From an uncultured Spirochaetaceae bacterium (GTDB lineage: Bacteria > Spirochaetota > Spirochaetia > Sphaerochaetales > Sphaerochaetaceae): 64,000 nucleotides of DNA. The notes beneath the pieces were generated by a model. That model did no database searches and was not told where the DNA came from. It saw nothing but the letters and a program-made list of their open reading frames with translations. Both the position numbers and the translations under genes were made by a program. Below, in pieces: positions 1,628 through 16,309 of the stretch. Where the stretch lies: NCBI GenBank assembly GCA_944388955.1, contig CALXKJ010000010.1, positions 1-64,000 of the forward strand, written 5' to 3'. Within the stretch, counting starts at the first letter, position 1. The number at the start of each line of letters is the position of its first letter.

Positions 1628-1638
1628 GCCAGCTGTGC

Positions 1639-1644
1639 TAAAAT
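1639..1644 (+). promoter_or_regulatory. Extended -10 box directly before the sensor kinase gene
   Basis: TGCTAAAAT carries an extended -10 TG dinucleotide and a TAAAAT hexamer ending 6 nt before the ATG at 1651, in the 23-nt gap after the MATE gene. No Shine-Dalgarno sequence and no good -35 box are visible. A transcript from it would begin at or next to the start codon. Confidence 0.4.
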
Positions 1645-1650
1645 AGACAC

Positions 1651-3369
1651 ATGACTGGGAAAACCGGGGCACCGCTTTCAAGGAAGCTTATCTTCTATTT
1701 CATGATTGTCATGCTTGCGCCTTTTGTGCTTTTCGTGAGCTATACGCTCATTACATTCACAGAAGGCACTTCTGGCATGATAAGGGCAGAAGCGGAGACT
1801 GCGCTCTCTGCAGATGCCGCTGAACTTGGTGCGATTATCGATGAATACAGGCATAAAGCCTATTCCCTCTCAACCTCCCCTACCATACGGCGTGTTCTTT
1901 ACAGCGACACTCCTGAGAGCACAGAAGAAGATATAAGAAGAATCTATGAGGAAATGTACGCGACAATGTCTGGTGATACATACAAAGCCGCGGCATCGAT
2001 TGTCTCAGACAGCGGCAATGTGAGAATCTCAACGCATAATTTCCCATCTGTCTATGACCTGAGGACTCATTCAAATGAATGGGATAGCGAGAACATAATC
2101 TCACTGGCATCACGAATGAACAGCAATCCACGCTCAAGTATCATCAGCATACTTGATCACAGGATAGAGAACGGCAAGGAAATCCTTTTTTCAGTTCTGC
2201 GAAGAGTCTTCTCCGATGATGGGCGCGTAATCGGCTATGTGATAATCGATATATACATAGACGCGCTTAGCAAGGAGATCAACAAAAGCGGCTTGTTTAC
2301 GGATATTGTGCTCGCCGATAGCTCCTCATATTCCGCAATATCATTGATTCATCCGCAGATCCACGGAGGATTTTCCGAATTCCCGTTTATCAGAGCTGAA
2401 GGAAGCAATAGCTACATTGCCCCGATTGCTGATACACAGCTATTTCTTGCAGCCACGAATGTGAATCCATTCATTCAGGAAAGCCTCAGGCAATGGACAT
2501 TCGTAATCGCACTCAGCCTCATGCTGGGCCTTGTCATATCAATCATATTCTCACTCATATTCTCACGCAGCCTTTCAAGCAGGATAAAGAATATCGCAAG
2601 CAGCATGAAACGATTCCAGAAAGGAGACTTCGGCATCACCCTCGAGCGTACGGGAATAAGGGAGATTGACGAGCTTTCTGACACATTCAACATAATGGTG
2701 CATCGCATCCAGGAACTTCTTGAGAAAACAAGGGAAGAAGAGGCAAAGAGCGCTGAAGCGGAGCGCAAAGCTCTTGAAAGCCAGATGAATCCGCACTTCC
2801 TCCTCAACACGCTGAACACGATAAAGGCTCTCGCGCGCATGCATGGTGAGGATGACATCTACATGACGACTATAAGGCTTGGGAAGCTTCTCAGGTCAAG
2901 CATCGACAACAGGAAAAGCAATGCCTCTATAAGGGAGTCTCTTGATCTTGCAGAGTGCTATCTGCAGATACAGAAGCTCAGGTTCGGCGATAAGCTTCAG
3001 TATAGGATAGCATGCAATGAGGACCTCATGGATATCGAGACACCGAAATTGATTATCCAGTCTATAGTCGAGAATGCCATAACCCACGGACTAGGAGAGA
3101 AAGTAGGCTCCTGGTATATAAACATCTCAGTGAAGAAATATGAGGACAGACTGAAGCTTTCCGTATCAGACAACGGCGTCGGCTTCCAGGAGATTCCATC
3201 CATGGATGAGCTTGGGGAAAGCCAGCATACAGGACTTTATAACATTTACAGACGGCTTCAGCTCAGATATGGAAATGAATTCACGTTTGCAATAGATTCT
3301 GTAAAAGGCGAAGGCTCAGAGGTCACTATAACCATTCCTCTGGAGGAAAAAGAGAATGAAGAAGCTTAA
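1651..3369 (+). CDS. YesM-type sensor histidine kinase
   Basis: A 572-residue membrane kinase. A first membrane helix (about 12-34) is followed by an extracytoplasmic sensor region of about 245 residues, a second helix (about 282-304), a HAMP linker, and a His_kinase domain of the LytS/YesM class with the phosphoacceptor His at about 382 in the QMNPHFLLNTLN motif. The C-terminus is an HATPase_c domain with an N box (SIVENAITHG) and a DNGVGF G1 box. It overlaps the response regulator gene by 14 bp, so the two are one unit. YesMN pairs usually sense an extracellular sugar and control a neighbouring ABC importer, which fits the convergent operon downstream. The ligand is unknown. Confidence 0.92.
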   Translation: MTGKTGAPLSRKLIFYFMIVMLAPFVLFVSYTLITFTEGTSGMIRAEAETALSADAAELGAIIDEYRHKAYSLSTSPTIRRVLYSDTPESTEEDIRRIYEEMYATMSGDTYKAAASIVSDSGNVRISTHNFPSVYDLRTHSNEWDSENIISLASRMNSNPRSSIISILDHRIENGKEILFSVLRRVFSDDGRVIGYVIIDIYIDALSKEINKSGLFTDIVLADSSSYSAISLIHPQIHGGFSEFPFIRAEGSNSYIAPIADTQLFLAATNVNPFIQESLRQWTFVIALSLMLGLVISIIFSLIFSRSLSSRIKNIASSMKRFQKGDFGITLERTGIREIDELSDTFNIMVHRIQELLEKTREEEAKSAEAERKALESQMNPHFLLNTLNTIKALARMHGEDDIYMTTIRLGKLLRSSIDNRKSNASIRESLDLAECYLQIQKLRFGDKLQYRIACNEDLMDIETPKLIIQSIVENAITHGLGEKVGSWYINISVKKYEDRLKLSVSDNGVGFQEIPSMDELGESQHTGLYNIYRRLQLRYGNEFTFAIDSVKGEGSEVTITIPLEEKENEEA

Positions 3370-4111
3370 AGTTGTCCTTGTCGAGGATGAGGAGATAGTA
3401 CTCAGAGAGCTTGAGAATACAATCAATTGGGAAAGTCTGGGGATGGAAGTCGTGGCGACAGCCTCCGATGGACTTGAAGGCGAGAAGAAGATACGCGCCT
3501 ATCTCCCTGATATCGTCGTCACGGATATAAAGCTTCCGGGAAAGGACGGTCTGAAGATGATCGAGGATGCAGCTGTCACCAATGGTATCATCCTCTCGGG
3601 TTATACTGATTTTGAATACACGAAGAGAGCAATACAGCTCGGCGTCTTCGATTATATAGAGAAGCCTGTCGATGACAACGAGCTGATAAATGTGCTCTCA
3701 AAACTCAGGACACGCATCGACGAGGAAGAGAAGGATATAGATTCAATAAGCAGCAGCGGCATGATAAAACTGAAGGAAAATGTCTCCAATCATTCTGTCA
3801 GCATGGCGATTGAATACATCAACAGAAATTATGCCAAGCAGATTACCCTTTCTGATATCGCGAGGGAGACGAAGCTTTCAGAAAGCCATCTTTCGTCGCT
3901 ATTCAAAGCGGAGACAGGCATCAACTTCCTGCAATACCTCAATGCGGTGCGAATAAACAAGGCATCCAGCCTTCTTAGGGGCACAGCAATGAATATCTCT
4001 GAAATCGCGGCTGAAACAGGCTTCCCATCCCCCGGGTATTTCACCAAGATATTCAAGCGGTTCAGAAACGAGACTCCTACCGAGTTCCGGAATTCAGATG
4101 AAGAGGTATGA
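3356..4111 (+). CDS. YesN-type response regulator (REC + AraC HTH)
   Basis: A 251-residue cytoplasmic regulator. The N-terminal receiver domain (about 1-120) has the acidic pocket (VLVEDEE), the phosphoacceptor Asp at about 57 (VTDIKLPGKDG) and the late Lys in EKPVDD. The C-terminal about 100 residues form two AraC-type helix-turn-helix motifs (ITLSDIARETKLSESHLSSL and ISEIAAETGFPSPGYFTKIF). A GGAGG Shine-Dalgarno sequence lies inside the kinase gene. The last 18 bp overlap the end of the convergent binding-protein gene at 4094, so there is no room for a separate terminator. It probably activates the ABC operon at 4.1-8.5 kb. Confidence 0.92.
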   Translation: MKKLKVVLVEDEEIVLRELENTINWESLGMEVVATASDGLEGEKKIRAYLPDIVVTDIKLPGKDGLKMIEDAAVTNGIILSGYTDFEYTKRAIQLGVFDYIEKPVDDNELINVLSKLRTRIDEEEKDIDSISSSGMIKLKENVSNHSVSMAIEYINRNYAKQITLSDIARETKLSESHLSSLFKAETGINFLQYLNAVRINKASSLLRGTAMNISEIAAETGFPSPGYFTKIFKRFRNETPTEFRNSDEEV

Positions 4112-5344
4112 AACCGAGGCCCTTAGCTGGGCGACAGCCTTCTCTGGGGATATCCCCTGAAGCATCACGCTTTCCACAGCTTCGCCTATAAGATCCTGAA
4201 TCTCCATTGCATATGGGCCTGAATAGACAGGAGTGCTGCGCTTTAAATCATCAATGAAGACGGAGCCATATGGCTTATTTATTACAGCATCGCCATTGAT
4301 TATCGTCTTCAGCGGCATCACCAGCCCGACTTCCTCAAGATATTCATCAGCGTGAGATGCAAAATAGGAAGCAAGTTTCCATCCTGCCATCTTCTCTTCT
4401 TCGCTTCGCGCCTCGTTGACCATGAAGAAATGAAGATATGATGATGCGGACACATCAGATAACGCAACCTCAAATGACGGGAATGGGAGAACTTTCCATC
4501 GCGGGCTTTCATAGAATTCAGGATTCATATCCTTCATTCTCTCCTCCTGATACAATCCAGAGAGACACATCGCAATCTTCTCATCGTTGAATAAAGACCT
4601 TGCGTTCAGCAGTGTCGGAGAGCCAAGGTTGTCTCCAAGAGGTCCCCACTCCTTCATGAATGAAAGTGCCTCTATCCAGGCATCATCATTTACGATGAAT
4701 GAGCCGTCACTTACCAGCCCACCTCCAAGCTGCATGACCATAGGTATGAAGAATGAAAGATAATATGGATACCGGAAATCAAAGACACGTTTTGTGATTA
4801 TACCGCCATCATGCTCCGTAAGAAGGAGACTTATATCCCTTATATCCTCCCATGTCTCAGGAAGCTCCAGACCAGCTTCCTCAAGCATGGAAGTATTTAC
4901 GTACAGGCACCAGTTCGTGTATTCAAGAGGAATGCCATAGATATTATCTCCATAAGTGACGGCATCGAATGCGCCAGGGATATAATCATCTGCAGAGATA
5001 ATCCCATCGGGAAGCTTATCGAGAGAGCCGCTCATGGCGAGTTCTGGAATCACTTCAGAAGATAGATTGAAAAGCACCGGTCCCAGACCAGCTTCCATCG
5101 ATGATGAGACTTTATAAATAAGCTCTGATGACTGAAACTCTGTACGCTCTACTTTTATACCGGGATTCTCAATCTCGAATTCAGCGATAAGCCGCTCCTC
5201 GAGAGCACCTCTCTTCCCATCTTCGTGTGTCCAGTACTGAATAACAATCTCCTCTTCTTCAGTGCATGAAGAGAGGAGAAATGAAAAAAGAACAAGCAGA
5301 ATCAGAAGAGGCGTATAACGATTCACCTCTTCAGTATAGCACAA
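4094..5344 (-). CDS. Extracellular solute-binding lipoprotein (second of two paralogues)
   Basis: A family 1 extracellular solute-binding protein of a carbohydrate ABC importer, about 410 residues. Unlike the first binding protein of the operon it has a lipoprotein signal, a hydrophobic stretch ending in LLSSC, so it should be anchored in a membrane. It is clearly a paralogue of the protein at 7208-8503: both share the IVIxxWTHED start, an NxYGIPLEYxNWC/YGLPLELNNWC core and a FRYPYYL motif in the same order. The start is uncertain. A TTG directly after the upstream stop has AAGG 5 nt before it; a GTG six codons later would give MNRYTPLL. It is the last gene of its operon. Confidence 0.88.
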   Translation of the reverse strand: MCYTEEVNRYTPLLILLVLFSFLLSSCTEEEEIVIQYWTHEDGKRGALEERLIAEFEIENPGIKVERTEFQSSELIYKVSSSMEAGLGPVLFNLSSEVIPELAMSGSLDKLPDGIISADDYIPGAFDAVTYGDNIYGIPLEYTNWCLYVNTSMLEEAGLELPETWEDIRDISLLLTEHDGGIITKRVFDFRYPYYLSFFIPMVMQLGGGLVSDGSFIVNDDAWIEALSFMKEWGPLGDNLGSPTLLNARSLFNDEKIAMCLSGLYQEERMKDMNPEFYESPRWKVLPFPSFEVALSDVSASSYLHFFMVNEARSEEEKMAGWKLASYFASHADEYLEEVGLVMPLKTIINGDAVINKPYGSVFIDDLKRSTPVYSGPYAMEIQDLIGEAVESVMLQGISPEKAVAQLRASVSYLFI

Positions 5345-6220
5345 TCATCCCTTTCTTGATTCATAAACAGCAGCACCGCCAAGGAAGTACTTAGAAAGTG
5401 AGAAGAAGAGGATAATCATCGGAATCGATGCGAGGAATGCACATGCCATCATCGCACCTTCATCAGTCATCTTCTCCTCGCTGAACTGTGTTATGTACTG
5501 CGGGAGTGTCTTCATATATTCTCTCTGCGCAACGAGAAGCGGCCAGAGAAGGTTATCCCACTGGTTGCGGAATGAGAGAATGCCGAGAGTCGCGATGACA
5601 GGCTTGCAGTTTGGAAGGACAATACTGCTGTATATCCTTGGCTCCGAAAGTCCGTCTACACGCGCTGCATCGAGATACTCAGTCGGGAATGTCAGAAGAT
5701 ACTGCCTCATCTGGAATACACCGAACGCCGAAACCATGAACGGGAATATGAGACCGCGGTAAGTGTTCATCAGCTTCATGCCTGAAACAACCATGTAAAG
5801 CGGAATCATAATCGCCTCGAAAGGAATCATCATCGTAGCCATGATGGACATGAATACGAAGTTCCTGCCCTTGAATCTGAACTTCGCGAGCCCATAGCCG
5901 CATAGTGATGCCAGAAGCACTGTCGTTATACTATCGACAATCGCGACAAAGAATGAGTTGAACATGTTCCTGAAGAACGTCGCATTCTCGTTATTGCCGA
6001 GTATTGCTTTCTGGAAGTTAGTGAAGAATGTCCTATCTGCGGACGAGAAATACTCGCGCGAAGGAATCCATCTGAAAGGCATGTCGAGAATCTGCCTGGC
6101 ATCCATGAATGATGATACAGCCATGAAAGCTATAGGAGTTATCGTGAAGAAGAATACGAGAATGAGGAATATCCAGACGAGAATCTCGACAAAGCTTATC
6201 TTGCCAACGAATTTATTCAT
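5345..6220 (-). CDS. Carbohydrate ABC transporter permease (MalG/UgpE-like)
   Basis: A 291-residue inner-membrane permease with six predicted helices. It has the EAA loop signature in the second half (EYLDAARVDGLSEPRIYSSI), the coupling-helix motif that docks the ATPase. It lies between the other permease (12 nt gap) and the second binding protein, whose TTG start immediately follows its stop codon. Together with the upstream permease it forms the heterodimeric channel of a CUT1-type sugar importer. No ATPase gene lies in the operon, so a shared MsmX/MalK-type ATPase encoded elsewhere is likely. Confidence 0.93.
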   Translation of the reverse strand: MNKFVGKISFVEILVWIFLILVFFFTITPIAFMAVSSFMDARQILDMPFRWIPSREYFSSADRTFFTNFQKAILGNNENATFFRNMFNSFFVAIVDSITTVLLASLCGYGLAKFRFKGRNFVFMSIMATMMIPFEAIMIPLYMVVSGMKLMNTYRGLIFPFMVSAFGVFQMRQYLLTFPTEYLDAARVDGLSEPRIYSSIVLPNCKPVIATLGILSFRNQWDNLLWPLLVAQREYMKTLPQYITQFSEEKMTDEGAMMACAFLASIPMIILFFSLSKYFLGGAAVYESRKG

Positions 6221-6232
6221 CCTACCCTCCTC

Positions 6233-7159
6233 TCAGTACTCGACGTCTTCGCTTGAGCGGTTAGCAACAAGCTGCAGATAAGTGAAGACAAGCATGATCA
6301 CGAAAAGCACGATACTCATCGCGCTCGCCCTTCCAAGCCTTCCATTCCTGATACCAGTGAAATAGATATTCATCGTGATAACATCTATAGGCGCTCTCGG
6401 CGATCCGCCCTGATAAAGCATGAACTGCGTGCTGAAAGTCTTCAGGCACTGAAGCATGGCCATAATGGAAACCATGGCAGTTGTCGGCTTGAGAAGCGGA
6501 AGCGTTATTCTCCAGAAGGTATGCCATCTTGAGGAGCCATCGACAGTCGCTGCCTCATAGATAGTTGGCGGTATGGAAGCAAGGCCTGTGATGAAGAGAA
6601 TCACGAAATAACCTATATATTTCCAGAAGTAGATGATAATCGTCGAAACCTGGATCATGATAGGATCCACAAGCCAGTTGTAATCAACGCCGGACGTGTG
6701 CATCACGAAGTTCGAGACCTGATTCATCAATCCTCTCGGGTCGAAGATAATCATCCAGATTGCCGCGGCGACAACAGAAGAGAGAACAGCAGGCATATAG
6801 TACATCAGCTGGAAAAAGCCTCTGTAGCGGTCACGCCTGAGCTGCATCATGAATGTTGCGAGAATCAGTGAGACTACAATCATCGGCACGAATGTTCCGA
6901 TTGTAAATACAAGAGTCGCCCTGATTGAATTCGAAAGCGGGAATCCACCATTGTTCTTGGTGAATATGTATACATAGTTCTCAAGCCCTGTGAATTCATA
7001 ATTTCTTCCAATAGCCTGACGGTTCGTGAAAGAAGTTATGAATGCATAGATGATGGGATAGAAACTGAAAATAGCAAAGAAGACAAGACAAGGGACTGTG
7101 AATGCGAATCCCCATCTCGCCTGCTTGCGCTCAATACTGTAAATCTTGTTCTTTCTCAC
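6233..7159 (-). CDS. Carbohydrate ABC transporter permease (MalF/UgpA-like)
   Basis: A 308-residue permease with about six membrane helices and the EAA motif (PPTIYEAATVDGSSRWHTF). I chose the GTG at 7159 because GGAAAG sits 6 nt upstream. A longer frame back to a TTG at 7189 would start inside a GC-rich hairpin and lacks a ribosome-binding site. It follows the first binding-protein gene after a 48-nt gap filled by that hairpin, an arrangement that usually lowers permease output relative to the binding protein. It pairs with the permease at 5345-6220. Confidence 0.92.
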   Translation of the reverse strand: MRKNKIYSIERKQARWGFAFTVPCLVFFAIFSFYPIIYAFITSFTNRQAIGRNYEFTGLENYVYIFTKNNGGFPLSNSIRATLVFTIGTFVPMIVVSLILATFMMQLRRDRYRGFFQLMYYMPAVLSSVVAAAIWMIIFDPRGLMNQVSNFVMHTSGVDYNWLVDPIMIQVSTIIIYFWKYIGYFVILFITGLASIPPTIYEAATVDGSSRWHTFWRITLPLLKPTTAMVSIMAMLQCLKTFSTQFMLYQGGSPRAPIDVITMNIYFTGIRNGRLGRASAMSIVLFVIMLVFTYLQLVANRSSEDVEY

Positions 7160-7177
7160 TTTTTTCTTTCCGGATAA

Positions 7178-7199
7178 TGCCCCGGACAAAGCCGGGGCA
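7178..7199 (-). terminator. GC-rich intercistronic hairpin after the binding-protein gene
   Basis: A perfect 8-bp stem TGCCCCGG/CCGGGGCA with a 6-nt loop starts 8 nt past the binding-protein stop codon. There is no T run, so it is more likely an mRNA-stabilising or attenuating stem-loop than a full terminator. The nan-like operon has an equivalent hairpin at 35928-35948. Confidence 0.7.
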
Positions 7200-7207
7200 A
7201 ATGAATA

Positions 7208-8503
7208 TTATGCCTCTTCGTCAATGAGTTCCTGAACGGAATTCTTGAGCTGAGTATAAGCATCCTCTGGTGTCACGCCCTGAAGCATAACACCTTCGAT
7301 AGCTGTTCTGAGAAGCGACTGGATCTCGTTTGCATTCGGTCCATAGTAAAGGACGTGAGCTCTTGCAAGATCGTTTGTGAATACATCGCTGTACGGCATA
7401 TTCTTATATGTATCGCTGTTCATGAGCTCTTTTGTAGGCTGGATAAGGTTAACCTGTGTAAGGTAATCCTCTCCGTGTGAGAGCATGAATGCGATGAATT
7501 CCCATGCCATTGCGATAGTCTCAGGATCCTCGTTCGCGTTGACCATGTAGTACTGGCCATAGTGGCAAGCTGAAACGTCATTCACTGCATCCTCGAAAAC
7601 AGGATAAGGAACAACCATCCAGTCTCCTGACTCATAGAACTCAGGGTTTTCTGACCTGATTCTTGCTTCCTGATAAAGACCGGTTGTGCACATCGCGATA
7701 TCATTATTGTTCTTGTTGAAGAGAGAGCGTGCGTTTGTGTAGGTCGGAGATCCGAGGTTGAGTCCGTTCGGTCCCCACTGCTGCATGAATGTAAGAACCT
7801 TAATCCAAGCATCCTTTCCTACGATAGCCTCTGTTCCATCATCGCTGATGAGCTGACCACCAAGCTGCTCGACCATCGGTACGATTGTCTCAAGATAGTA
7901 TGGATATCTGAAGTCATAGCCACGGCGGATAAGGATATCACCATCGCGGATTACGAGCTTCTCTGAAATCTCTACCATATCTTCCCATGTCTTCGGGTAA
8001 TCTGTCTCTGGATCAAGACCAGCATCGCGGAAGACCTGCTTGTTGATGAAGATACACCAGTTGTTAAGCTCAAGAGGAAGACCATAGATCTCACCATCAT
8101 ATGTTACAGCCTCAAGCATTCCATCGATATATGCATCCTCAACAGCTGCAGCATCTGCATAACCAGCGGCTTCATAATCCATAGGAGCTACACTGCCTGT
8201 GGATACAAATGAGTTGATAGCATCATTTGTAAGATTGAAGACTGTCGGGCCCTCACCTGCTGCGAATGCTGTCTGAACAAGCTCAATGATCTTCGATGAA
8301 GCCTGGCGTGTTGCGTTGATTTTCACATTCGGATGAGTTGCTTCGAATTCAGCGATAAAGCCATCTTCGAGTTTCTGACGTGTTGCATCCTCGTGTGTCC
8401 AGAATTCTATAACGATCTGCTCGTTCTTTTTCTCTCCAGCTCCGCCTGCAAATACAGAAAGAGCCATCATGAAAACCAATAAAACGGAAATTGCTTTGCG
8501 CAT
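7208..8503 (-). CDS. Extracellular solute-binding protein (first of two paralogues)
   Basis: A 431-residue periplasmic binding protein of a CUT1 sugar importer. The start at 8503 is set by a very strong GGAGGAAGGA sequence directly upstream; a 27-codon extension in frame is not needed. Its signal peptide ends VFAGGAGEKK with no cysteine, so signal peptidase I should release it as a soluble protein, in contrast to its lipoprotein paralogue at 4094. It carries the EFWTHED start, the YGLPLELNNWC core and FRYPYYL. It is the first gene of the operon SBP-permease-permease-SBP. The nearby YesMN pair is the probable regulator and the sugar is unknown. Confidence 0.92.
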   Translation of the reverse strand: MRKAISVLLVFMMALSVFAGGAGEKKNEQIVIEFWTHEDATRQKLEDGFIAEFEATHPNVKINATRQASSKIIELVQTAFAAGEGPTVFNLTNDAINSFVSTGSVAPMDYEAAGYADAAAVEDAYIDGMLEAVTYDGEIYGLPLELNNWCIFINKQVFRDAGLDPETDYPKTWEDMVEISEKLVIRDGDILIRRGYDFRYPYYLETIVPMVEQLGGQLISDDGTEAIVGKDAWIKVLTFMQQWGPNGLNLGSPTYTNARSLFNKNNNDIAMCTTGLYQEARIRSENPEFYESGDWMVVPYPVFEDAVNDVSACHYGQYYMVNANEDPETIAMAWEFIAFMLSHGEDYLTQVNLIQPTKELMNSDTYKNMPYSDVFTNDLARAHVLYYGPNANEIQSLLRTAIEGVMLQGVTPEDAYTQLKNSVQELIDEEA

Positions 8504-8684
8504 TCCTTCCTCCTTTATTCTATTAAAATCGTCAATCTTCCAAGCATTTCTATCAATGAAACATTTTTTCGATTTAATGAACAAAACGATTAAAATGCGA
8601 TGAACATGCGTAGCATCTCCGGGGAAATTGATTCAAACGAATAGACAATCTTCATAATTTAAATCAAAATTTCATTCAAATGAC

Positions 8685-8713
8685 TTTACAACATCCCTGT
8701 TTTCCGGTATAAG
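8685..8713 (+). promoter_or_regulatory. Promoter of the tRNA-Lys/tRNA-Glu unit
   Basis: A -35 box TTTACA (8685-8690) and a -10 box TATAAG (8708-8713) are separated by exactly 17 nt, about 64 nt before tRNA-Lys. A two-part hairpin (CTACAGG 8715-8721 pairing with CCTGTAG 8741-8747, and inner GCCT/AGGC) would lie in the 5' leader. Confidence 0.6.
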
Positions 8714-8776
8714 TCTACAGGATTGCCTACGAGGCGTAAGCCTGTAGCCATTCTGATGAAGGATTTTTCCCGATTC

Positions 8777-8849
8777 GGGCTGCTAGCTCAGCTGGTAGAG
8801 CAACGCCCTTTTAAGGCGTGGGTCATTGGTTCGAATCCAATGCAGCTCA
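8777..8849 (+). tRNA. tRNA-Lys (anticodon TTT)
   Basis: All four arms fold: acceptor GGGCTGC/GCAGCTC with one G-T pair, D arm GCTC/GAGC, anticodon stem ACGCC/GGCGT with loop CTTTTAA, and T arm ATTGG/CCAAT with loop TTCGAAT. The discriminator is A and CCA is not encoded. Length is 73 nt. Confidence 0.96.
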
Positions 8850-8855
8850 CTGCAT

Positions 8856-8927
8856 GTCTCCCTCGTCTAGTGGTTAGGACAACGGGTTTTCATCCCGTCA
8901 ACGCGGGTTCGATCCCCGCGGGAGATG
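8856..8927 (+). tRNA. tRNA-Glu (anticodon TTC)
   Basis: It folds with acceptor GTCTCCC/GGGAGAT (first pair G-T), D arm GTCT/GGAC, anticodon stem ACGGG/CCCGT with loop TTTTCAT, and T arm GCGGG/CCCGC with loop TTCGATC. The discriminator is G and CCA is not encoded. It lies 6 nt after tRNA-Lys and shares its promoter and the terminator at 8937. Confidence 0.95.
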
Positions 8928-8936
8928 TTTTGATAG

Positions 8937-8963
8937 CTCCTTGCAATGCAGGGAGTTTTTTTA
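8937..8963 (+). terminator. Rho-independent terminator of the tRNA unit
   Basis: Stem CTCCTTGC/GCAGGGAG (one G-T pair) with loop AAT, followed by a run of seven T. Confidence 0.85.
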
Positions 8964-9074
8964 TTCATAGTATTTCGTTTGAACGGAATTTGTATACTTC
9001 ATTGTTACACGAAACGAACACTTTTATAAAAGCCTTATTGCTTCATATTAGCTGCAAGAAAAGAGTCTCTTAAT

Positions 9075-9269
9075 TCAACGATGCCGTCCTCGAGATGGGG
9101 TGTATTTTTTGACTGCCTCATAGTAACTATGACCATTCTGAATATCACTTATAATTGAAGCTCTCTGATGGACTAGATATGTAAGCCGCGTACTGAAGGA
9201 AACAAGCATGGCGTCTCTGCTATACAGCTTCTCAATATCTTCCATTGATGGAAGCTTTGATATATCCAC
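9075..9269 (-). CDS. Small hypothetical ORF, possible gene fragment
   Basis: An open frame of 64 codons from a GTG at 9269 that can be read open for about a dozen codons further upstream before an in-frame TAG. The protein is charged and mostly helical by composition (LPSMEDIEKLYSRDAMLVSF, ending YEAVKKYTPSRGRHR). I do not recognise a family. There is no clear ribosome-binding site, and the same-strand neighbour upstream (9463-9828) is separated by about 190 bp without a gene. It may be the tail of a decayed gene that once formed a pair with that neighbour. The rest of the stretch 8964-9462 holds nothing I can identify. Confidence 0.3.
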   Translation of the reverse strand: MDISKLPSMEDIEKLYSRDAMLVSFSTRLTYLVHQRASIISDIQNGHSYYEAVKKYTPSRGRHR

Positions 9270-9462
9270 AATTGATGGATCACTGACATGTTCGATGGAA
9301 TTCTTCTAAGACCTGTAGAATCCATTTGTTTTCTCATGCAATAGTTGGTATAGTATTGGCCCCTTCCTCAAGCATGTCTTGACTGATAAATACCAAATCC
9401 TGCTAGAAATATCGCAAAATCAGGCTTATTTATCTATCTAATGCTATTGAAATATCCGCTGC

Positions 9463-9828
9463 TCAGAGCCGTACCCACCGGTCAGATAAAAAGGGCTTGA
9501 GAGCGAGCCTACGGTTTTCAGTATCTTGTCTTGAAGAGGGTACAGCTTCTCCTCGTAATATTGCGTATGCGATATCAGCTTTTTGCCGCGCCTCCTTCCT
9601 AAGCCCTTGCCGTGTTTGTGCTGTGAATAGTCTTTTCACAGTATCAATTCCGAAAAGAGATACAAGTTCATGCCATCTAAGGTTCTCAAATGCCCGTATG
9701 AAGCACCGCCTTAGCTTAGCTTCATCTTGCTTTCTGGGATGTTCAATCAGATCCAGCATCAGCGATGGATTGATATCATAATCCCAATACAGGTTCCTTA
9801 TAAGTTCCTCTTTCTCTTTTCTATTCAT
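9463..9828 (-). CDS. Small hypothetical protein, DUF6922-like
   Basis: A 121-residue basic protein beginning MNRKEKEELIRNLYWDYDIN. The opening (L-Y/F-W-D-Y-D) followed by a helical region and FENLRWHELVSLFGIDTVKRL is reminiscent of the small DUF6922-type proteins often encoded next to AbiEii/AbiGii nucleotidyltransferase toxins. That family link is from memory and unverified. GGTGA lies about 9 nt before the ATG. No intact nucleotidyltransferase gene follows on the same strand, only the short ORF at 9075, so this may be an orphan from a broken two-gene module at the edge of the accessory island. Confidence 0.5.
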   Translation of the reverse strand: MNRKEKEELIRNLYWDYDINPSLMLDLIEHPRKQDEAKLRRCFIRAFENLRWHELVSLFGIDTVKRLFTAQTRQGLRKEARQKADIAYAILRGEAVPSSRQDTENRRLALKPFLSDRWVRL

Positions 9829-10054
9829 TTCTATTCACCAAGAATAATATACCCATTTCATTTTACCAGTCACAATTAGAAATCTATTGATTATTTTCAA
9901 CCACAAAGTGAGAGAATATAAGGAAAACCCTAACAGTATTCATATAATTGACAATGTCCAATACGCTCGATAGTATTTACGGCGTATATTCACACAGGCA
10001 TTCTATCTTGTTTGAATATATGAGTTTTTACAATAAAAAACTGTTTATCTTCTT

Positions 10055-10079
10055 GAGGGTTCGACTCCCGCTTGAAGAT
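10055..10079 (+). other. tRNA- or tmRNA-like 3' end, candidate attachment site
   Basis: The sequence reads as a T arm (GAGGG, loop TTCGACT, CCCGC; one mismatch in the stem) followed by seven nt that could be a 3' acceptor strand, and then at once by a hairpin terminator. No D arm or anticodon arm precedes it, so this is not a functional tRNA. A tRNA or tmRNA 3' end with its terminator, cut off from the rest of the gene, is what integration of a mobile element leaves behind. It does not match the 3' ends of the two intact tRNAs at 8.8 kb. Confidence 0.4.
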
Positions 10080-10085
10080 GGAAAA

Positions 10086-10113
10086 AACTCTCTTCGGAGA
10101 GCTTTTGTTTTTG
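10086..10113 (+). terminator. Rho-independent terminator
   Basis: Stem CTCTC/GAGAG with a TTCG tetraloop, preceded by an A run and followed by TTTTGTTTTT. It sits 7 nt after the tRNA-like 3' end and looks like that gene's own terminator. Confidence 0.8.
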
Positions 10114-10148
10114 TCCGTTATTCTGGCCGTCTGCAAAGACGGTCACTT

Positions 10149-11639
10149 TTATGAAATCGAGATTCCAAGTTTATACACAACATCAGACATATAATCATGA
10201 TTTAGCCAGAATGATTGCTTTGTCATCCAGTCTCCATTCGGAAGCATAAATGCGTTTTTCCTTGAACTGTCATAACTATTGGCATAGACCTTGCCATTTA
10301 TGATGTGATATGCCTTTGGCGCGTGAGGTCTGACGTGAGCAATTGATTCGGGTTCACTTTTCTTAGGTAAGTCGTTTGTTATCTCGACTCCACCATTGGC
10401 ATTTTCAACCGGAACAAGTTTAACACCATGTGTAAGTTTATTCTTTGCAATTTCCCAGCATTTTCGAAGTGGACCGTAAATATCAGTACCTGACATTCCC
10501 CAGAATGAGGCACCAATAAATCTGCAAACTTCCTTGCCATCAAGAGATTCTTTCTTCCATATCGAAAGCAGGAATCTGGTGCTTTCAAAATAATTGCAAA
10601 GTGCTGATTCATCGAATGAATCTTCATTAAGAACACTTAGAAAATCAGAAACGGGGAGTGAAATTGACTCTCTAAGTTTTCCATTTGATTCAAATCGCAG
10701 AGTCTTCATCACAATGTTTGCCTTCAGAAACTCCTCACAATTGTTAGAACGCACTCCCATCATCGCAAAAGACAGCCCAGAGTGAAAATTTTTTGATTTT
10801 AATAATGCGACATCCAATTCCTGCGCAATCTCAAAATCATATTTACCGACATACCTATTCATTCTGCCGATGGCAACTGATTCAAAATCCACCCCAAGCT
10901 TCTCTGCTCTGACATATGTATCCTTATCTTGCATTATGTAGTTATTCTGAAGATAAGTCATATAGGAATTCTTCAGACAGAAGGCCCTTGGCTTCGCCTC
11001 CTTATATGGAGGATATCCTTGCTTCTTCATCTGTCCGCTGGATCCTTTCGTGCAAGCCCCAAGATACTCAGTCATACTTTCGGAAAGTTCATCAGCCCTC
11101 CCCTCATAAACAAGGCGCATGATATCCGCCCAATCTTTCCGTATAACTGGCATATCTTCTTCTGGAGGGGTAAAAAGGGTTACTTTCTCAAACCTGTATG
11201 CTCCTTGATCTATACTTTTATGATTAGATGGCCGAAGATATACACATAGAAGAATGCATTTAAGTTTCTCTGCGAGATGCGTTTCTTCAAATTTCTTAGG
11301 GCGTCCATCGATTTCATTATCAACAGGCATATAGCTTATCATTGTGATAACAAGGCGCTCTCCGGCTTTCCATGCTTTAATACCTTTTTCAACAGGAGTA
11401 ACTTTGAGTTCAACTCCAAGATCTTCAAAATCAGGTCTCTGGGCGCTATTGGTTGCAATGCCCAAAGCTTCTTCGACTATATTCCCAATACTACCTTTAT
11501 GCTTGAGAGAACTCATAAGATGCTCGGCTTTTTCTTCGTCAGGAACATATTTTGCTATTTCGCTCAACGTCTCCCCCAGCACCATATCTTTTACAGATTT
11601 CTCAAGATTTTCAATCGAACTCAAATCCACACTCTTCAC
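10149..11639 (-). CDS. Type II restriction endonuclease, Sau3AI/MutH family
   Basis: A 496-residue protein, close to Sau3AI (489 residues) in length. The N-terminal domain carries a MutH-type catalytic set: Glu at 56, then Asp70, Glu77 and Lys79 in PDFEDLGVELKV. This is the D-x6-E-x-K spacing of E. coli MutH. Sau3AI-type enzymes cut at GATC and have a second, non-catalytic MutH-like domain, which the length allows here. The start is a GTG at 11639. The cognate methyltransferase is probably the gene at 13570-14775, also on the minus strand but separated by an oppositely oriented DUF262 gene. The GATC specificity is inferred from the family only. Confidence 0.82.
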   Translation of the reverse strand: MKSVDLSSIENLEKSVKDMVLGETLSEIAKYVPDEEKAEHLMSSLKHKGSIGNIVEEALGIATNSAQRPDFEDLGVELKVTPVEKGIKAWKAGERLVITMISYMPVDNEIDGRPKKFEETHLAEKLKCILLCVYLRPSNHKSIDQGAYRFEKVTLFTPPEEDMPVIRKDWADIMRLVYEGRADELSESMTEYLGACTKGSSGQMKKQGYPPYKEAKPRAFCLKNSYMTYLQNNYIMQDKDTYVRAEKLGVDFESVAIGRMNRYVGKYDFEIAQELDVALLKSKNFHSGLSFAMMGVRSNNCEEFLKANIVMKTLRFESNGKLRESISLPVSDFLSVLNEDSFDESALCNYFESTRFLLSIWKKESLDGKEVCRFIGASFWGMSGTDIYGPLRKCWEIAKNKLTHGVKLVPVENANGGVEITNDLPKKSEPESIAHVRPHAPKAYHIINGKVYANSYDSSRKNAFMLPNGDWMTKQSFWLNHDYMSDVVYKLGISIS

Positions 11640-11689
11640 GATTACAATCCTATGATCCTGAATCTTATTTTACTAATACCTATGAATTG

Positions 11690-11718
11690 TTCCAGAGACT
11701 TGCCGCAATTGTTATAAT
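11690..11718 (+). promoter_or_regulatory. Promoter of the DUF262 gene
   Basis: TGTTATAAT gives an extended -10 with a perfect TATAAT (11713-11718); TTCCAG at 11690-11695 is a weak -35 box 17 nt upstream. An AAGGAG ribosome-binding site follows at 11726. The region lies in the 102-bp divergent gap to the restriction-enzyme gene. Confidence 0.55.
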
Positions 11719-11741
11719 CCTGAACAAGGAGAATTACTAGA

Positions 11742-13535
11742 ATGGACTTCGTTAATATCGAAAATATATGTTCAAACGGTTATTATGCAGTGCCAGATTA
11801 TCAGAGAGATTATGAATGGACAGCTTATCAAAATGAAACACTAAAAGATGACATATTTGCTATTGCAGACTCACCAAATACTCAAAATCATTTCATGGGA
11901 GCTCTTGTAACAGTCAAATATGATTTAAGCAATGCTGTTAATCAATCAATCAAAAATCTACAAAGCTATGACATTGATAATGATAATGTGCGTCACATTG
12001 TTGATGGTCAGCAGAGGTTGACATCGTTGATGATTTTTATTTCTGAACTTAGAAGATTCATAAAGGACAAAGGCCCTGACATGAATATTCCAACAGGGAA
12101 CATAAGTAATTATGATAGTCGTCTCAAAAAAATACTTGTTGGAGATAATTGCAATCAAAACAGCGAAGTAGTAAGCCGGTTAATTCTGAATGGAAACACA
12201 GGATATTGCTTTAACAAAGAAATAACTGGATGTTCCAATCGATTATATAAAGGTAATCTGAAAGGTGCCACGAGAATCAAAAGAGCTAGGGAGATTTTCA
12301 AAAATGCAATAGAAGCAAAATATGCGGGATTGATGAAAGAAGGAAATTCCCCAGAAAATATTCACGACTATTTCAAAAAATTTATCAACATAATCTGTAC
12401 TCGTATCATTTTTGTTGAAATACGATGCAATGACTCCACAGATGCTTTCCAGGTATTTGACTCACTGAATGGAAAAGGTCTTGACCTCACAGCTGCTGAT
12501 AGAATCAAAAATATCTTTCTCAGCTGGGATAACACAGGAAACGGTGTTAAAAACTGGAAAATACTTGAAGAGAATATCGGAGAAGATTATCTCACTAGCT
12601 TCTTTGTTGCACTCTTCTTCTACAACAATACCAGAAGGATTCCAAAAAATAGATTGCCTGAGCAATTCAAATTTGACTACAAAGAATGTGCAGAAACAAA
12701 TTATTATACATTCTTCAACAAGCTTTCAGATGCGGCCAGATTATATGGGGAGCTTCGAAGTGCGAGAACTGGACATAGCGTAGTTGATAACATATTGAAA
12801 AAAATCATGCTGATAAAATCTGACCAGATTTACGTTGCTATATTTTCTGCAGCTTTTCATTATGACAACATTGTTGGAACTCAGTCTTATGTAGATTTCC
12901 TTAATGCACTTATAAAATATATTGTCAGAATGCAGGTCTGTCAGAAAAGCATGAATAGGCTCGATGTGGTATTCTCAGAGTGCATTAAAAACATGAAAAA
13001 AGGTGACTTATTACCTGATATTACTGCAAAAATCGCTAGCGAAACAAAAACTATTTCAGACGAATCATTCAAAAGAAGCTTTATTGAATTTGCACCTTCC
13101 GATAACAATATTTCATACTATTATCTGGGAGAAATAGAAGATTTTCTTAGAACAAAAGCAGGTTATCAAACATCAGTATTCAATGAGAGAACCAGTGTAG
13201 AACATATTATTCCTAAATCGTTGCCAACCGAATGGTTTGATGACGGATATGAGCTTCCAGAAGATGTGAAAGACAATACTAAAGAGCTTCTGATTGAACG
13301 AATCGGAAACAAGGCTCTTCTATTCCAGTATGATAATTCTTCAGCGGGAAACTCCACATACCAAGATAAAGTGACTATTTATATCAATGGTACTCCAGGA
13401 CGGCTAAATGGCAATGCAAAAAATACGTTCAAACTGATTGAGGAATTACTTGATGACTATCCATCTAAATTTGATTATGAATCTGTAAATAATCGAGCTG
13501 AAAAACTTGCGGATTATGCAATACAGATATGGTAA
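11742..13535 (+). CDS. DUF262/DUF1524 protein, GmrSD-like defence nuclease
   Basis: A 597-residue single-chain protein. The N-terminal DUF262 (GmrS-like, ParB-type NTPase) has YQRDYEW (about 20-26) and the DGQQRLTSL motif (about 88-96). The C-terminal DUF1524 (GmrD-like, His-Me/HNH nuclease) has SVEHIIPKSL with His at about 488, then an IGNK segment. Fused GmrSD-type enzymes restrict phage DNA, often with modified bases, and need no cognate methylase. The gene is visibly more AT-rich than the housekeeping genes, which suggests recent transfer. AAGGAG lies 10 nt before the ATG. It stands between, and opposite to, the restriction enzyme and methyltransferase genes, and a bidirectional terminator follows it. 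Confidence 0.8.
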   Translation: MDFVNIENICSNGYYAVPDYQRDYEWTAYQNETLKDDIFAIADSPNTQNHFMGALVTVKYDLSNAVNQSIKNLQSYDIDNDNVRHIVDGQQRLTSLMIFISELRRFIKDKGPDMNIPTGNISNYDSRLKKILVGDNCNQNSEVVSRLILNGNTGYCFNKEITGCSNRLYKGNLKGATRIKRAREIFKNAIEAKYAGLMKEGNSPENIHDYFKKFINIICTRIIFVEIRCNDSTDAFQVFDSLNGKGLDLTAADRIKNIFLSWDNTGNGVKNWKILEENIGEDYLTSFFVALFFYNNTRRIPKNRLPEQFKFDYKECAETNYYTFFNKLSDAARLYGELRSARTGHSVVDNILKKIMLIKSDQIYVAIFSAAFHYDNIVGTQSYVDFLNALIKYIVRMQVCQKSMNRLDVVFSECIKNMKKGDLLPDITAKIASETKTISDESFKRSFIEFAPSDNNISYYYLGEIEDFLRTKAGYQTSVFNERTSVEHIIPKSLPTEWFDDGYELPEDVKDNTKELLIERIGNKALLFQYDNSSAGNSTYQDKVTIYINGTPGRLNGNAKNTFKLIEELLDDYPSKFDYESVNNRAEKLADYAIQIW

Positions 13536-13540
13536 AAGGA

Positions 13541-13561
13541 TGGCTCAGCATCTCTGAGCCA
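13541..13561. terminator. Bidirectional terminator between DUF262 and methyltransferase genes
   Basis: A perfect 8-bp stem TGGCTCAG/CTGAGCCA with loop CATCT sits in the 34-bp convergent gap. The minus-strand tail CCTTTTACC and the plus-strand tail CCTTGCTTTC are both T-rich. Confidence 0.75.
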
Positions 13562-13569
13562 CCTTGCTT

Positions 13570-14775
13570 TCATCTTATTTCATTTATTCTTTTACCCATT
13601 ATTTCTATTAGTCCTACAACAAGTGCATTACCCATACAGAAGTACCTGAATTTCTGAGACATACCTGTGTTTGTCCAATTATCAGGGAATCCGTTAAGTC
13701 GTTCACACTCCATAGGAGTAAGCAGTCTTAGTTTTCCTGTTTCAGGATCTCTGATGACATGGGTTGATCTATTTTTAGTAGACTCCCCTGTCAGCATCGT
13801 GCGGCTTGGCTTATCAAGGTAATCTGGATATGCTATTGGACCTTCGGAATAATTGTATTCATGCCCTGTTGATGTCACTCTTTTTTCTTTTTTTGCACCT
13901 TTCAAATAAGCCCATTGCGGCTCATCTTCTGGCTTTATATAGAATATCTCAGATACATTCTTTTCAAGAATATCACCAAGGGTCATTCTGTGACCATCAT
14001 AAACAGAGTCAACACGATATGTATAACATACATAATCGATACAGTATCCACTATTCTCAAAAGGAGCACTGAAATCATCTGATACAGATTTTATATCCTT
14101 AGGTATCTCTATTTTGCGAACCCTCGTCCCTGCATACGGATGACATCCAAATGGCACAGCAAAAAAACCAGAATGGAGGAGAACATTCTCCGCTTCTTTG
14201 TTTGCGTATAGCTTTTCCTGGACTGCTGTATCTTTTGTTGCGAATATAAAAGTTCTTCTTCGTCTTTGAGGGAATCCATAATCAGCTGCATTTATTACAC
14301 GCCATTCTATTGAATATCCGAGAGAAAGCAGACATGAAAGGATAATTCCAAAATCTCGACCACGTTGACGAGCTGGAGATTTTAAAAGGCGGTCAACATT
14401 TTCTAATAAAATAAATCTTGGTTTTTTATCAGAGGCAATGCGATAAATTTCCCACCAAAGTACACCCTTCTTTCCCTGTATTCCCTTTGAATTCGCTAAT
14501 GTTGAAGCTACAGAATAATCCTGACATGGAAATCCACCAACTAAAAGTTCATGGGCAGGAATGTCTTCAGCTAAAACAGTTGCAACATCTACATTGAGAT
14601 TAACACTATCCTTGAAATGTTCATTGTAGCAATCAAAAGCCCATTGGCTCTTTTTTCCAGGCTCCCATTGATTTGCCATAATCACTTTCCAACCAGACTT
14701 TTTGAGCCCAAGGTTAAAACCGCCTACTCCTGCAAAGAGCTCTACTACGGTTTTATCTGTCTTGTATGTTTCCAT
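13570..14775 (-). CDS. DNA (cytosine-5-)-methyltransferase
   Basis: A 401-residue type II C5 methyltransferase. Motif I (ELFAGVGGFNLG, about 12-23) binds SAM, motif IV has the catalytic Cys84 in GGFPCQ, motif VI is ENV (125-127), motif VIII is QRRRR (170-174) and motif X contains GNALVVGLI near the C-terminus. The segment between VIII and X is the target-recognition domain. It probably protects the sites cut by the Sau3AI-like enzyme at 10149; M.Sau3AI-type enzymes make GAT-m5C, so GATC is the expected target. AGGTGA lies 7 nt before the ATG. Two inverted repeats upstream may serve autoregulation. Confidence 0.9.
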   Translation of the reverse strand: METYKTDKTVVELFAGVGGFNLGLKKSGWKVIMANQWEPGKKSQWAFDCYNEHFKDSVNLNVDVATVLAEDIPAHELLVGGFPCQDYSVASTLANSKGIQGKKGVLWWEIYRIASDKKPRFILLENVDRLLKSPARQRGRDFGIILSCLLSLGYSIEWRVINAADYGFPQRRRRTFIFATKDTAVQEKLYANKEAENVLLHSGFFAVPFGCHPYAGTRVRKIEIPKDIKSVSDDFSAPFENSGYCIDYVCYTYRVDSVYDGHRMTLGDILEKNVSEIFYIKPEDEPQWAYLKGAKKEKRVTSTGHEYNYSEGPIAYPDYLDKPSRTMLTGESTKNRSTHVIRDPETGKLRLLTPMECERLNGFPDNWTNTGMSQKFRYFCMGNALVVGLIEIMGKRINEIR

Positions 14776-14797
14776 GTCTTATCACCTGTAAGGCTGC

Positions 14798-14874
14798 AAT
14801 CAATGCAGATTGATTTTTTGACTTTAGCAGAAATGTATAAAAAAAACAAAAAATGATCAACCATTTTCGTTGAT
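14798..14874. promoter_or_regulatory. Two inverted repeats upstream of the methyltransferase gene
   Basis: AATCAAT-GCAG-ATTGATT (14798-14815) lies 23 bp before the methyltransferase start, and ATCAAC-N7-GTTGAT (14856-14874) lies 60 bp further up. Both contain an ATCAA half-site, so they could be operators for one protein. Some C5 methyltransferases repress their own genes, but no helix-turn-helix extension is evident in this one. Confidence 0.4.
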
Positions 14875-14980
14875 TTGACACAGTGAGAACCACAGAAAAA
14901 TAGTATTTTGCTTCTTGCCTCCTTTATAATATGTAACTTCACATCTTTTCATCTTTTGTTTCTATGCCTTAATGGGAAGC

Positions 14981-15118
14981 ATGAATCAAAGGGATCTTAT
15001 CAAGGAAGCTGATGAGTTAATCATCAAGACAGAGCAACAGGATGCACTTGAGGATGAGAGGAAGAAAGAAGGAGAAGAGAATCTGAATCTTCTTCTATCG
15101 CTTCTTTCCAGCAAATAG
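14981..15118 (+). CDS. Possible 45-residue acidic small protein
   Basis: An open frame from ATG to TAG that encodes MNQRDLIKEADELIIKTEQQ and continues with acidic, helix-forming residues, ending in a Leu/Ser-rich tail. In-frame ATGs at 14972 and 14981 are both possible; GGGAAG lies very close to the second. The composition is protein-like (amphipathic, Glu/Lys/Leu), but no family is recognised and it may be the leftover of a larger gene at the island edge. It is convergent with the barrel protein gene at 15163. Confidence 0.3.
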   Translation: MNQRDLIKEADELIIKTEQQDALEDERKKEGEENLNLLLSLLSSK

Positions 15119-15162
15119 GCATCTCGTCATTGACGCCCCGCCGGAAATGACAGGGCTGATTA

Positions 15163-15726
15163 TCAATACACGAATGAAACACCGACAAACGGGGCCACGA
15201 CAACAATAGGAACACCTTCTGTCGTGAAAGCACTCTGGTCTCCTATTTCCGGCATTGTTCCAAAGATTGCGCCTCCTGCGGTGATACCTGTCTTCACAGC
15301 AACATTCTCGCCTACATCAAAAGATGCTGTGACCGTACCGTATATATCGAAAAGGTTTACTATCAGGATAGTGCGGACTTTAAGTCCGAGACTCAGGGCA
15401 AGATCAAAGCTCTCACCAATAGGGAAATCATATGCAAGTCCTACTTTACCAGTCAGAAGAGCGGCTGAACCGATGAATTCATTGCCATCAGGAGCAAACT
15501 GCGCCAAAGGAAACCAGCCACCGATTCCATACTCAATACCGAAGCCTCCATCTGCTCCGAAATAATTCGCACCTTCAGCCATGACGACAGCTCCTAAAAT
15601 CGTAGAGCCATCGGATGTGGATATGAACACTTCAGGATATAGTGTTCCACCGATTTCACCTTTTGCCGCTGATAGATTCATGATTGCGATAACAGCAACA
15701 AGGATAAGGATACAGGCTTTCTTCAT
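15163..15726 (-). CDS. Small outer-membrane beta-barrel-like protein
   Basis: A 187-residue exported protein. A signal peptide (MKKACILILVAVIAIMNLSA) is followed by alternating hydrophobic and Gly/aromatic strands typical of small eight-stranded barrels, and the chain ends in an aromatic residue (VSFVY), the usual terminal signature of outer-membrane barrels. No enzymatic motif is present and the family is not recognised. GGAGGG lies before the ATG at 15726. It is monocistronic, with an AT-rich upstream region. The function is unknown. Confidence 0.65.
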   Translation of the reverse strand: MKKACILILVAVIAIMNLSAAKGEIGGTLYPEVFISTSDGSTILGAVVMAEGANYFGADGGFGIEYGIGGWFPLAQFAPDGNEFIGSAALLTGKVGLAYDFPIGESFDLALSLGLKVRTILIVNLFDIYGTVTASFDVGENVAVKTGITAGGAIFGTMPEIGDQSAFTTEGVPIVVVAPFVGVSFVY

Positions 15727-15993
15727 AAATCCCTCCGGTTAATGAAATTCTCTCATCAGTTTTCGGAGAAATCAAGAAAAGGACATACAGCTGAATAGCA
15801 TGTCTGGAGAAAAATTCAATGTTAATTATTGATTTCTATATAATTTTTATTCTGTAATTTATGTAAATAAATATGAAAAACATTATTTTCAAAATTTAAC
15901 TGATATGAATTTATTTATCATTCTAAATGAATTTATCATTCATTTCACATGAATTACTATGGAACAATCAGAGTTTCCTACAATATTCATAGC

Positions 15994-16027
15994 AACAGAA
16001 CCGGAAAGATATCTTCCCGATTCTGTT
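15994..16027 (-). terminator. Long hairpin after the copA-csoR operon
   Basis: On the minus strand AACAGAA and a CGGGAA segment pair with TTTCCG and TTCTGTT around the loop GATATC, a stem of about 13-14 bp, 12 nt past the csoR stop. No long T run follows, so it is a probable but imperfect terminator or 3' stabiliser. Confidence 0.6.
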
Positions 16028-16039
16028 TGTCAGTTTTAG

Positions 16040-16309
16040 TCATGCTTTTGCGGTCATCTTCTCAAGGACTTTCAGAGCTTCCTCTATCTTCTCGTTAGGC
16101 TCGTCTGTCTTGAGAGCATCACGGACACAACTTCGGATATGAGCTTCCAGGACTTCCTGCGCTGCTTTCTTCAGAATAGCAGAGGATGCAAGAATCTGAT
16201 CCGCGATTGTCACGCAATAGCGGTCATCGTCTATCATCTTCAGTATTCCGTCAAGCTGTCCACGCGCTATCGATATCTTGCGCTTCACGCTATCTTTATC
16301 AGCCTTCAA
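16040..16309 (-). CDS. csoR: CsoR-family copper-sensing repressor
   Basis: An 89-residue all-helical DUF156 protein. It keeps the Cu(I) ligand set Cys-x(n)-His-x3-Cys: Cys in RYCVTI (about 32), then His and Cys in EAHIRSC. This separates CsoR from RcnR/FrmR, which have other N-terminal ligands. It starts with TTG at 16309 behind a good GAGGTGA, and overlaps the copA end by 11 bp, so the two are translationally coupled. Copper binding should release it from the operator at 18888-18913 and induce the operon including itself. Confidence 0.9.
   Translation of the reverse strand: MKADKDSVKRKISIARGQLDGILKMIDDDRYCVTIADQILASSAILKKAAQEVLEAHIRSCVRDALKTDEPNEKIEEALKVLEKMTAKA

Follow-up and report, generated by a model that had tools for sequence, protein, structure and literature searches.

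An inverted GmrSD-type gene separates the restriction and methyltransferase genes of a Sau3AI-type system in an uncultured Spirochaetaceae bacterium

A Sau3AI-type gene pair and the gene between

The DNA analysed here, referred to as the window, is a stretch of 64,000 nucleotides from an uncultured Spirochaetaceae bacterium (contig CALXKJ010000010.1, assembly GCA_944388955.1). It carries three intact open reading frames, termed R, D and M. R (10149..11639, minus strand, 496 aa) encodes a Sau3AI-family type II restriction endonuclease made of a MutH-like N-terminal nuclease domain and a C-terminal domain, D (11742..13535, plus strand, 597 aa) a single-chain GmrSD-type protein, and M (13570..14775, minus strand, 401 aa) a C5 cytosine DNA methyltransferase. 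These coordinates and strands are exactly those given in an earlier note on this DNA, and its family assignments are supported by domain and family profile matches. D lies in the 1930 bp that separate R from M. The genes found beyond R and M are two without assignment, csoR and a copper ATPase gene, and no helicase is present among them. A tRNA-Lys and tRNA-Glu pair (8777..8928, plus strand) stands beside the variable region that bears the locus and is not part of the system. All parts are of known kinds, and their exact combination was found only once.

R scored 400 bits against the NCBIfam Sau3AI equivalog NF040973 (cut-off 300) and matched the sequence of the Sau3AI crystal structure 4pxg with an E-value of 1e-44; its MutH-type catalytic residues D70, E77 and K79 are kept among relatives. 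M was recognised by the Pfam DNA_methylase profile (212 bits) and by the PADLOC type II methyltransferase model (543 bits), and is of the type that partners Sau3AI-family R in related loci. By these sequence relationships, the site recognised by R and M is probably GATC. A scan of GTDB genomes with an M alignment yielded 80 loci from Spirochaetota, Bacillota, Saccharibacteria, archaea and others, in which the M family was found near a recognisable Sau3AI-type R in 65 cases. The window locus shares both families with these systems but differs in that its pair is split by D, whereas the gap between R and M does not exceed 300 bp in 54 of the 65 pairs. The statement of the earlier note that the two genes are adjacent in Sau3AI-type systems applies to those 54 pairs and not to the 11 with a larger gap; direct adjacency is usual for such systems rather than defining. 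Depletion of GATC was considered as a further signal and proved uninformative: GATC occurs in the window at 0.62 of expectation, and GTAC and CTAG are depleted more strongly. A possible methylation switch at a GATC located 15 bp before the start of R was also dropped, the leader of the related R in genome G250 having no GATC there.

Transcription signals

D and M converge, and the 34 bp between their 3' ends contain a hairpin (13541..13561). This hairpin folds better than shuffled sequences on both strands (z-scores of -3.1 and -4.2) and is likely a bidirectional terminator, so that the terminator previously ascribed to D exists but can serve both D and M. The promoter ascribed to D is less clear. 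Direct reading of the 102-bp divergent intergenic region between R and D (11640..11741) reveals an extended -10 element, TGTTATAAT, at 11710-11718 and a Shine-Dalgarno-like AAGGAG ahead of the ATG of D. A consensus promoter scan, however, gave no clear excess in the region (25 found versus 18.6 ± 5.0 expected) and did not list this -10 element; taken alone, it lends the promoter no support. The hairpin between D and M would end transcription coming from M before it reaches R, thereby separating the expression of the two partners and leaving R dependent on the divergent region that it shares with D, where R presumably needs a promoter of its own. Past the 3' end of R, a second hairpin (10124..10145), listed by the hairpin scan on the plus strand only, may from its position act as the terminator of R.

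D belongs to the GmrSD family by sequence and predicted fold

The DUF262 and DUF1524 domains are fused in the single chain of D, which matched both GmrSD_N (PF03235, 98.9 bits) and GmrSD_C (PF07510, 49 bits) above their cut-offs; its best PADLOC family was HEC-06 (203 bits). Among 36 homologs, the DUF262 motifs Q21-R22, V87-DGQQR92 and F239..N243 are invariant or nearly so. The His-Me finger of the DUF1524 domain comprises E487-H488, N523 and N532, of which H488 and N523 are invariant and N532 is present in 30 of the 36 homologs. The AlphaFold2 model of D (pLDDT 84.8) matched DndI, SspE and BrxU along the greater part of the chain, with Foldseek E-values ranging from 2.6e-5 (BrxU) to 6.6e-15 (DndI) and VIA Z-scores of 13 to 24 across 338-569 residues, against at most 7.6 for unrelated entries. 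Both the profile matches and the modelled fold place D in the GmrSD family, and D may sense modified cytosine. Its nearest solved folds are nevertheless those of the phosphorothioate sensors DndI (VIA Z-score 23.8) and SspE rather than that of the modified-cytosine enzyme BrxU (7p9m, Z-score 14.2).

Phosphorothioation requires a protein of the PAPS-reductase family. No match to the corresponding profile, PF01507, was found in the genome carrying the window, a 95.6% complete assembly, whereas all 14 control genomes were matched. Phosphorothioate made by the host is therefore not the likely cue of D, and it was set aside as a host mark. The same genome carries a second DUF262+DUF1524 gene (locus L256, 7898-9679, contig C23) next to a divergent WYL/WCX regulator gene; no C5 methyltransferase, Sau3AI-type R or other restriction-modification gene was recognised alongside.

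The R/D/M order was found once, and gaps between R and M hold varied genes

A search for the same order of R, DUF262/DUF1524 gene and M in other genomes, proposed in the earlier note, did not find it again. A profile search detected no D-like gene in 22 stretches holding R or M from 21 genomes of the phylum, nor was any D-like gene located between R and M in the 80 loci of the GTDB scan, which rules out R/D/M as a recurrent module. DUF262 genes occur within 10 kb in two of these 80 loci, and both are distant from D in sequence. One, from a Bacilli metagenome-assembled genome (L110, 6911-9962), is located downstream of a Sau3AI-type R, 16 bp away, at a locus with a divergent M; its product shares 17% identity with D and lacks a GmrSD_C match, which suggests that the two families became linked independently there. 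The other, in a group III euryarchaeote (L135), is a long gene near M at a locus where no R was called. Searches of 139 genomes of the family and 393 of the phylum yielded no ortholog of D that exceeded about 28% identity across most of the protein. The best full-length matches in these genomes and in plasmids and phages were about 22-28% identical, tblastn against plasmids and phages returned distant matches only (about 20-26%), and none of three plasmid Sau3AI loci had an annotated DUF262 gene within 6 kb. An initial scan of genome contigs with D and scans of viral contigs with R and with D alone also returned nothing.

Other genes were found between R and M instead. The wide gaps of the GTDB loci hold Vsr (L111, L123), NucS_C-like (L072, L091) or AIPR and FRG genes (L093), or one unassigned gene (L089). 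Within the family of the window, an HNH gene, also inverted, lies between R and M in G430 (L056, 10172-12649), and in G357 (L031, 7362-14968) the two genes flank a faintly ParB-like gene (below cut-off), an SNF2 helicase gene and one unassigned gene. The gap may be a site for cargo, or these occasional genes may reflect a mere clustering of defence and repair functions. Two further arrangements were noted among related loci. G446 (L064, 2261-5376) has a tandem pair of Sau3AI-family R genes beside a single M. In G408, of the same genus as the window (L058, 9070-11877; also L070), the C5 methyltransferase reading frame continues in frame into an alpha-L-arabinofuranosidase C-terminal domain. This 935-aa fusion, with both Pfam domains above cut-off and no R alongside, may be a real one that arose once R had been lost, or else an artefact of assembly.

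The closest M-R operons lack D

G250 and G433, two genomes from the family of the window, carry an M and an R that are 78% and 65% identical to those of the window, in the same order and orientation, with a gap of 117 bp and no D. Phylogenetic trees group the window M with those of G250, G433, G430 and G323 (100/99) and the window R with those of G250, G433 and G423 (100/100), the latter, from the same genus, being a fragment at a contig end with 64-65% identity. As M and R are adjacent in G250 and G433, the preferred reading is that D entered an existing M-R operon later and split it. The GC contents of D (0.345), M (0.386) and R (0.401) are the lowest of the 39 window genes of at least 200 aa (mean 0.460, sd 0.030). 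Three relatives from the genus (G249, G388 and G340) have csoR close to the tRNA pair and no R, D or M there. The simplest account, supported by these comparisons, is that an M-R operon was acquired and that D was then inserted into its gap in the window lineage. The earlier note had left it open whether D was inserted into a classical system or evolved with it. Insertion is favoured by the closest M-R operons without D and by the different composition of D; joint evolution is disfavoured by the single occurrence of R/D/M and by the lack of a D ortholog in the genomes searched. The pair itself has a composite history: the window M falls within a family-wide clade, but the window R, together with those of G250 and G433, sits in another clade than the R of G430 and of most remaining members of the family, indicating that R and M partners were exchanged within this M lineage.

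No direct repeat of a tRNA end bounding the region was found, no integrase was recognised among the window open reading frames, and a simple insertion could not be drawn, the tRNA-Lys/tRNA-Glu pair being inverted relative to relatives. This inversion, seen relative to csoR in comparison with L245, L247 and L248, accompanies the replacement of the whole stretch between the gene at 272-1627 and csoR (window 1628-16040), a rearranged and variable region of the genus. By eye, positions 10050-10080 resemble the 3' end of a tRNA (T-arm and acceptor) and are followed by a hairpin; ARAGORN and Rfam make no call there, and this segment may be what is left of a tRNA gene at the border of the acquired DNA.

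A possible layered defence and its alternatives

We consider it fairly probable that the locus represents a layered defence, in which a horizontally acquired Sau3AI-type M-R operon received, in its short gap and in inverted orientation, a single-gene GmrSD-type type IV enzyme in the window lineage. By analogy with published systems, such an arrangement could plausibly work as follows. R would cut DNA unmethylated at its own site, probably GATC, while M would shield the host by C5 methylation; D would sense through its DUF262 domain in an NTP-dependent manner and then cut foreign DNA bearing other, probably bulkier, cytosine modifications that escape R, ignoring the m5C of the host. This reading takes R, M and D to be active as their sequences predict. 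The difficulty lies in self-tolerance: the family member BrxU cuts 5mC DNA, although glucosylated DNA is preferred (PMC12409352), and the same range in D could hit host DNA methylated by M. Either D does not respond to m5C in these contexts, or it is kept under control, or it has no activity. Its tolerance of host m5C is plausible by analogy. The position of DndI and SspE, rather than BrxU, as nearest solved folds also sits less well with a modified-cytosine enzyme, and recurrence lends a functional link no support, the R/D/M order being a single case.

That single occurrence fits a chance neighbourhood, in which D would act on its own, as a type IV or abortive enzyme that is aimed at something other than modified cytosine and happened to settle in a defence-rich variable region. 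The second DUF262/DUF1524 gene of the genome, on another contig away from any recognised C5 methyltransferase or Sau3AI-type R, the varied cargo of R-M gaps elsewhere (from Vsr, NucS_C-like, AIPR+FRG and HNH genes to a helicase set) and the occurrence of DUF262 proteins in several kinds of defence systems (PMC10952713) are all consistent with it. We nonetheless judge a chance neighbourhood unlikely, though deserving serious attention, as D carries every motif of modification-dependent GmrSD enzymes and the nesting of type IV genes in modification systems is a repeated published pattern. The fold matches, with DndI as the best (Foldseek E-value 6.6e-15), evoke another arrangement: D would be licensed by the methylation laid down by M, as SspE and DndI are by phosphorothioate, before attacking foreign DNA, giving a three-gene system whose two effectors would respond oppositely to a single host mark. 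M lies directly beside D, and the genome, devoid of a detectable PAPS-reductase family protein, would require D to sense something else than phosphorothioate. Fold similarity does not reveal a ligand, however, M already has its normal partner in R, and no D-like gene is so linked to a related M in 102 other stretches; we hold such a one-off m5C counterpart of SspE/DndI to be very improbable. Equally slight is the chance that R-D-M is ancestral and that D was lost in the G250/G433 lineage. The small number of close loci makes gain and loss formally equivalent, but D is absent from all other related loci, including that of the outgroup G099, and is set apart from R and M by its composition.

Relation to known systems

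A close precedent for the layered defence favoured here is TgvAB of Vibrio cholerae VPI-2, which is embedded in a type I restriction-modification cluster and acts on hypermodified phages (PMC11411939). In both cases GmrSD-family type IV genes are nested within a classical restriction-modification cluster and the enzymes are proposed to complement each other, some acting on modified and others on unmodified DNA, phage protection having been shown for TgvAB (PMC11411939). TgvAB differs in consisting of two proteins in a type I host cluster, whereas the window has one protein, encoded in inverted orientation, in a type II Sau3AI-type host, here described from its sequence. BrxU, which complements BREX (PMC10952713) and is encoded beside it (PMC8565348, PMC12409352), shares with D the single DUF262+DUF1524 chain and a related fold. 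Its partner mark, however, is N6-methyladenine, so that the 5mC activity of BrxU does not meet the mark of its partner, while the partner of D makes m5C. DUF262 proteins also lie, like D, inside other defence clusters: the GmrSD-like HEC-05 and HEC-06 in Hma clusters (PMC11411939) and RloF between hsdS and hsdR (PMC4619093), GmrSD neighbourhoods being generally rich in restriction-modification genes (PMC4619093). These hosts are Hma or type I loci and neither adjoins D; no helicase-methylase-ATPase cluster was found around it. DndI and SspE, its best structural matches, act with phosphorothioation genes, none of which was found in the window genome.

If active as its genes suggest, the locus would add a type II system to the pattern of type IV nesting published for type I, BREX and Hma loci. 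It would then raise the question of how an enzyme of the GmrSD type can live with the m5C that the product of its neighbour makes, given that BrxU cuts 5mC DNA, and it would provide a natural constraint under which the cytosine-modification selectivity of the GmrSD family becomes testable. The same genome also carries a second C5 methyltransferase gene on another contig (L257, 7625-16001, contig C12), followed by genes for a HATPase_c_3 protein, a Z1-domain protein and a DUF4420 PD-(D/E)XK protein, a cluster that looks like a separate defence system.
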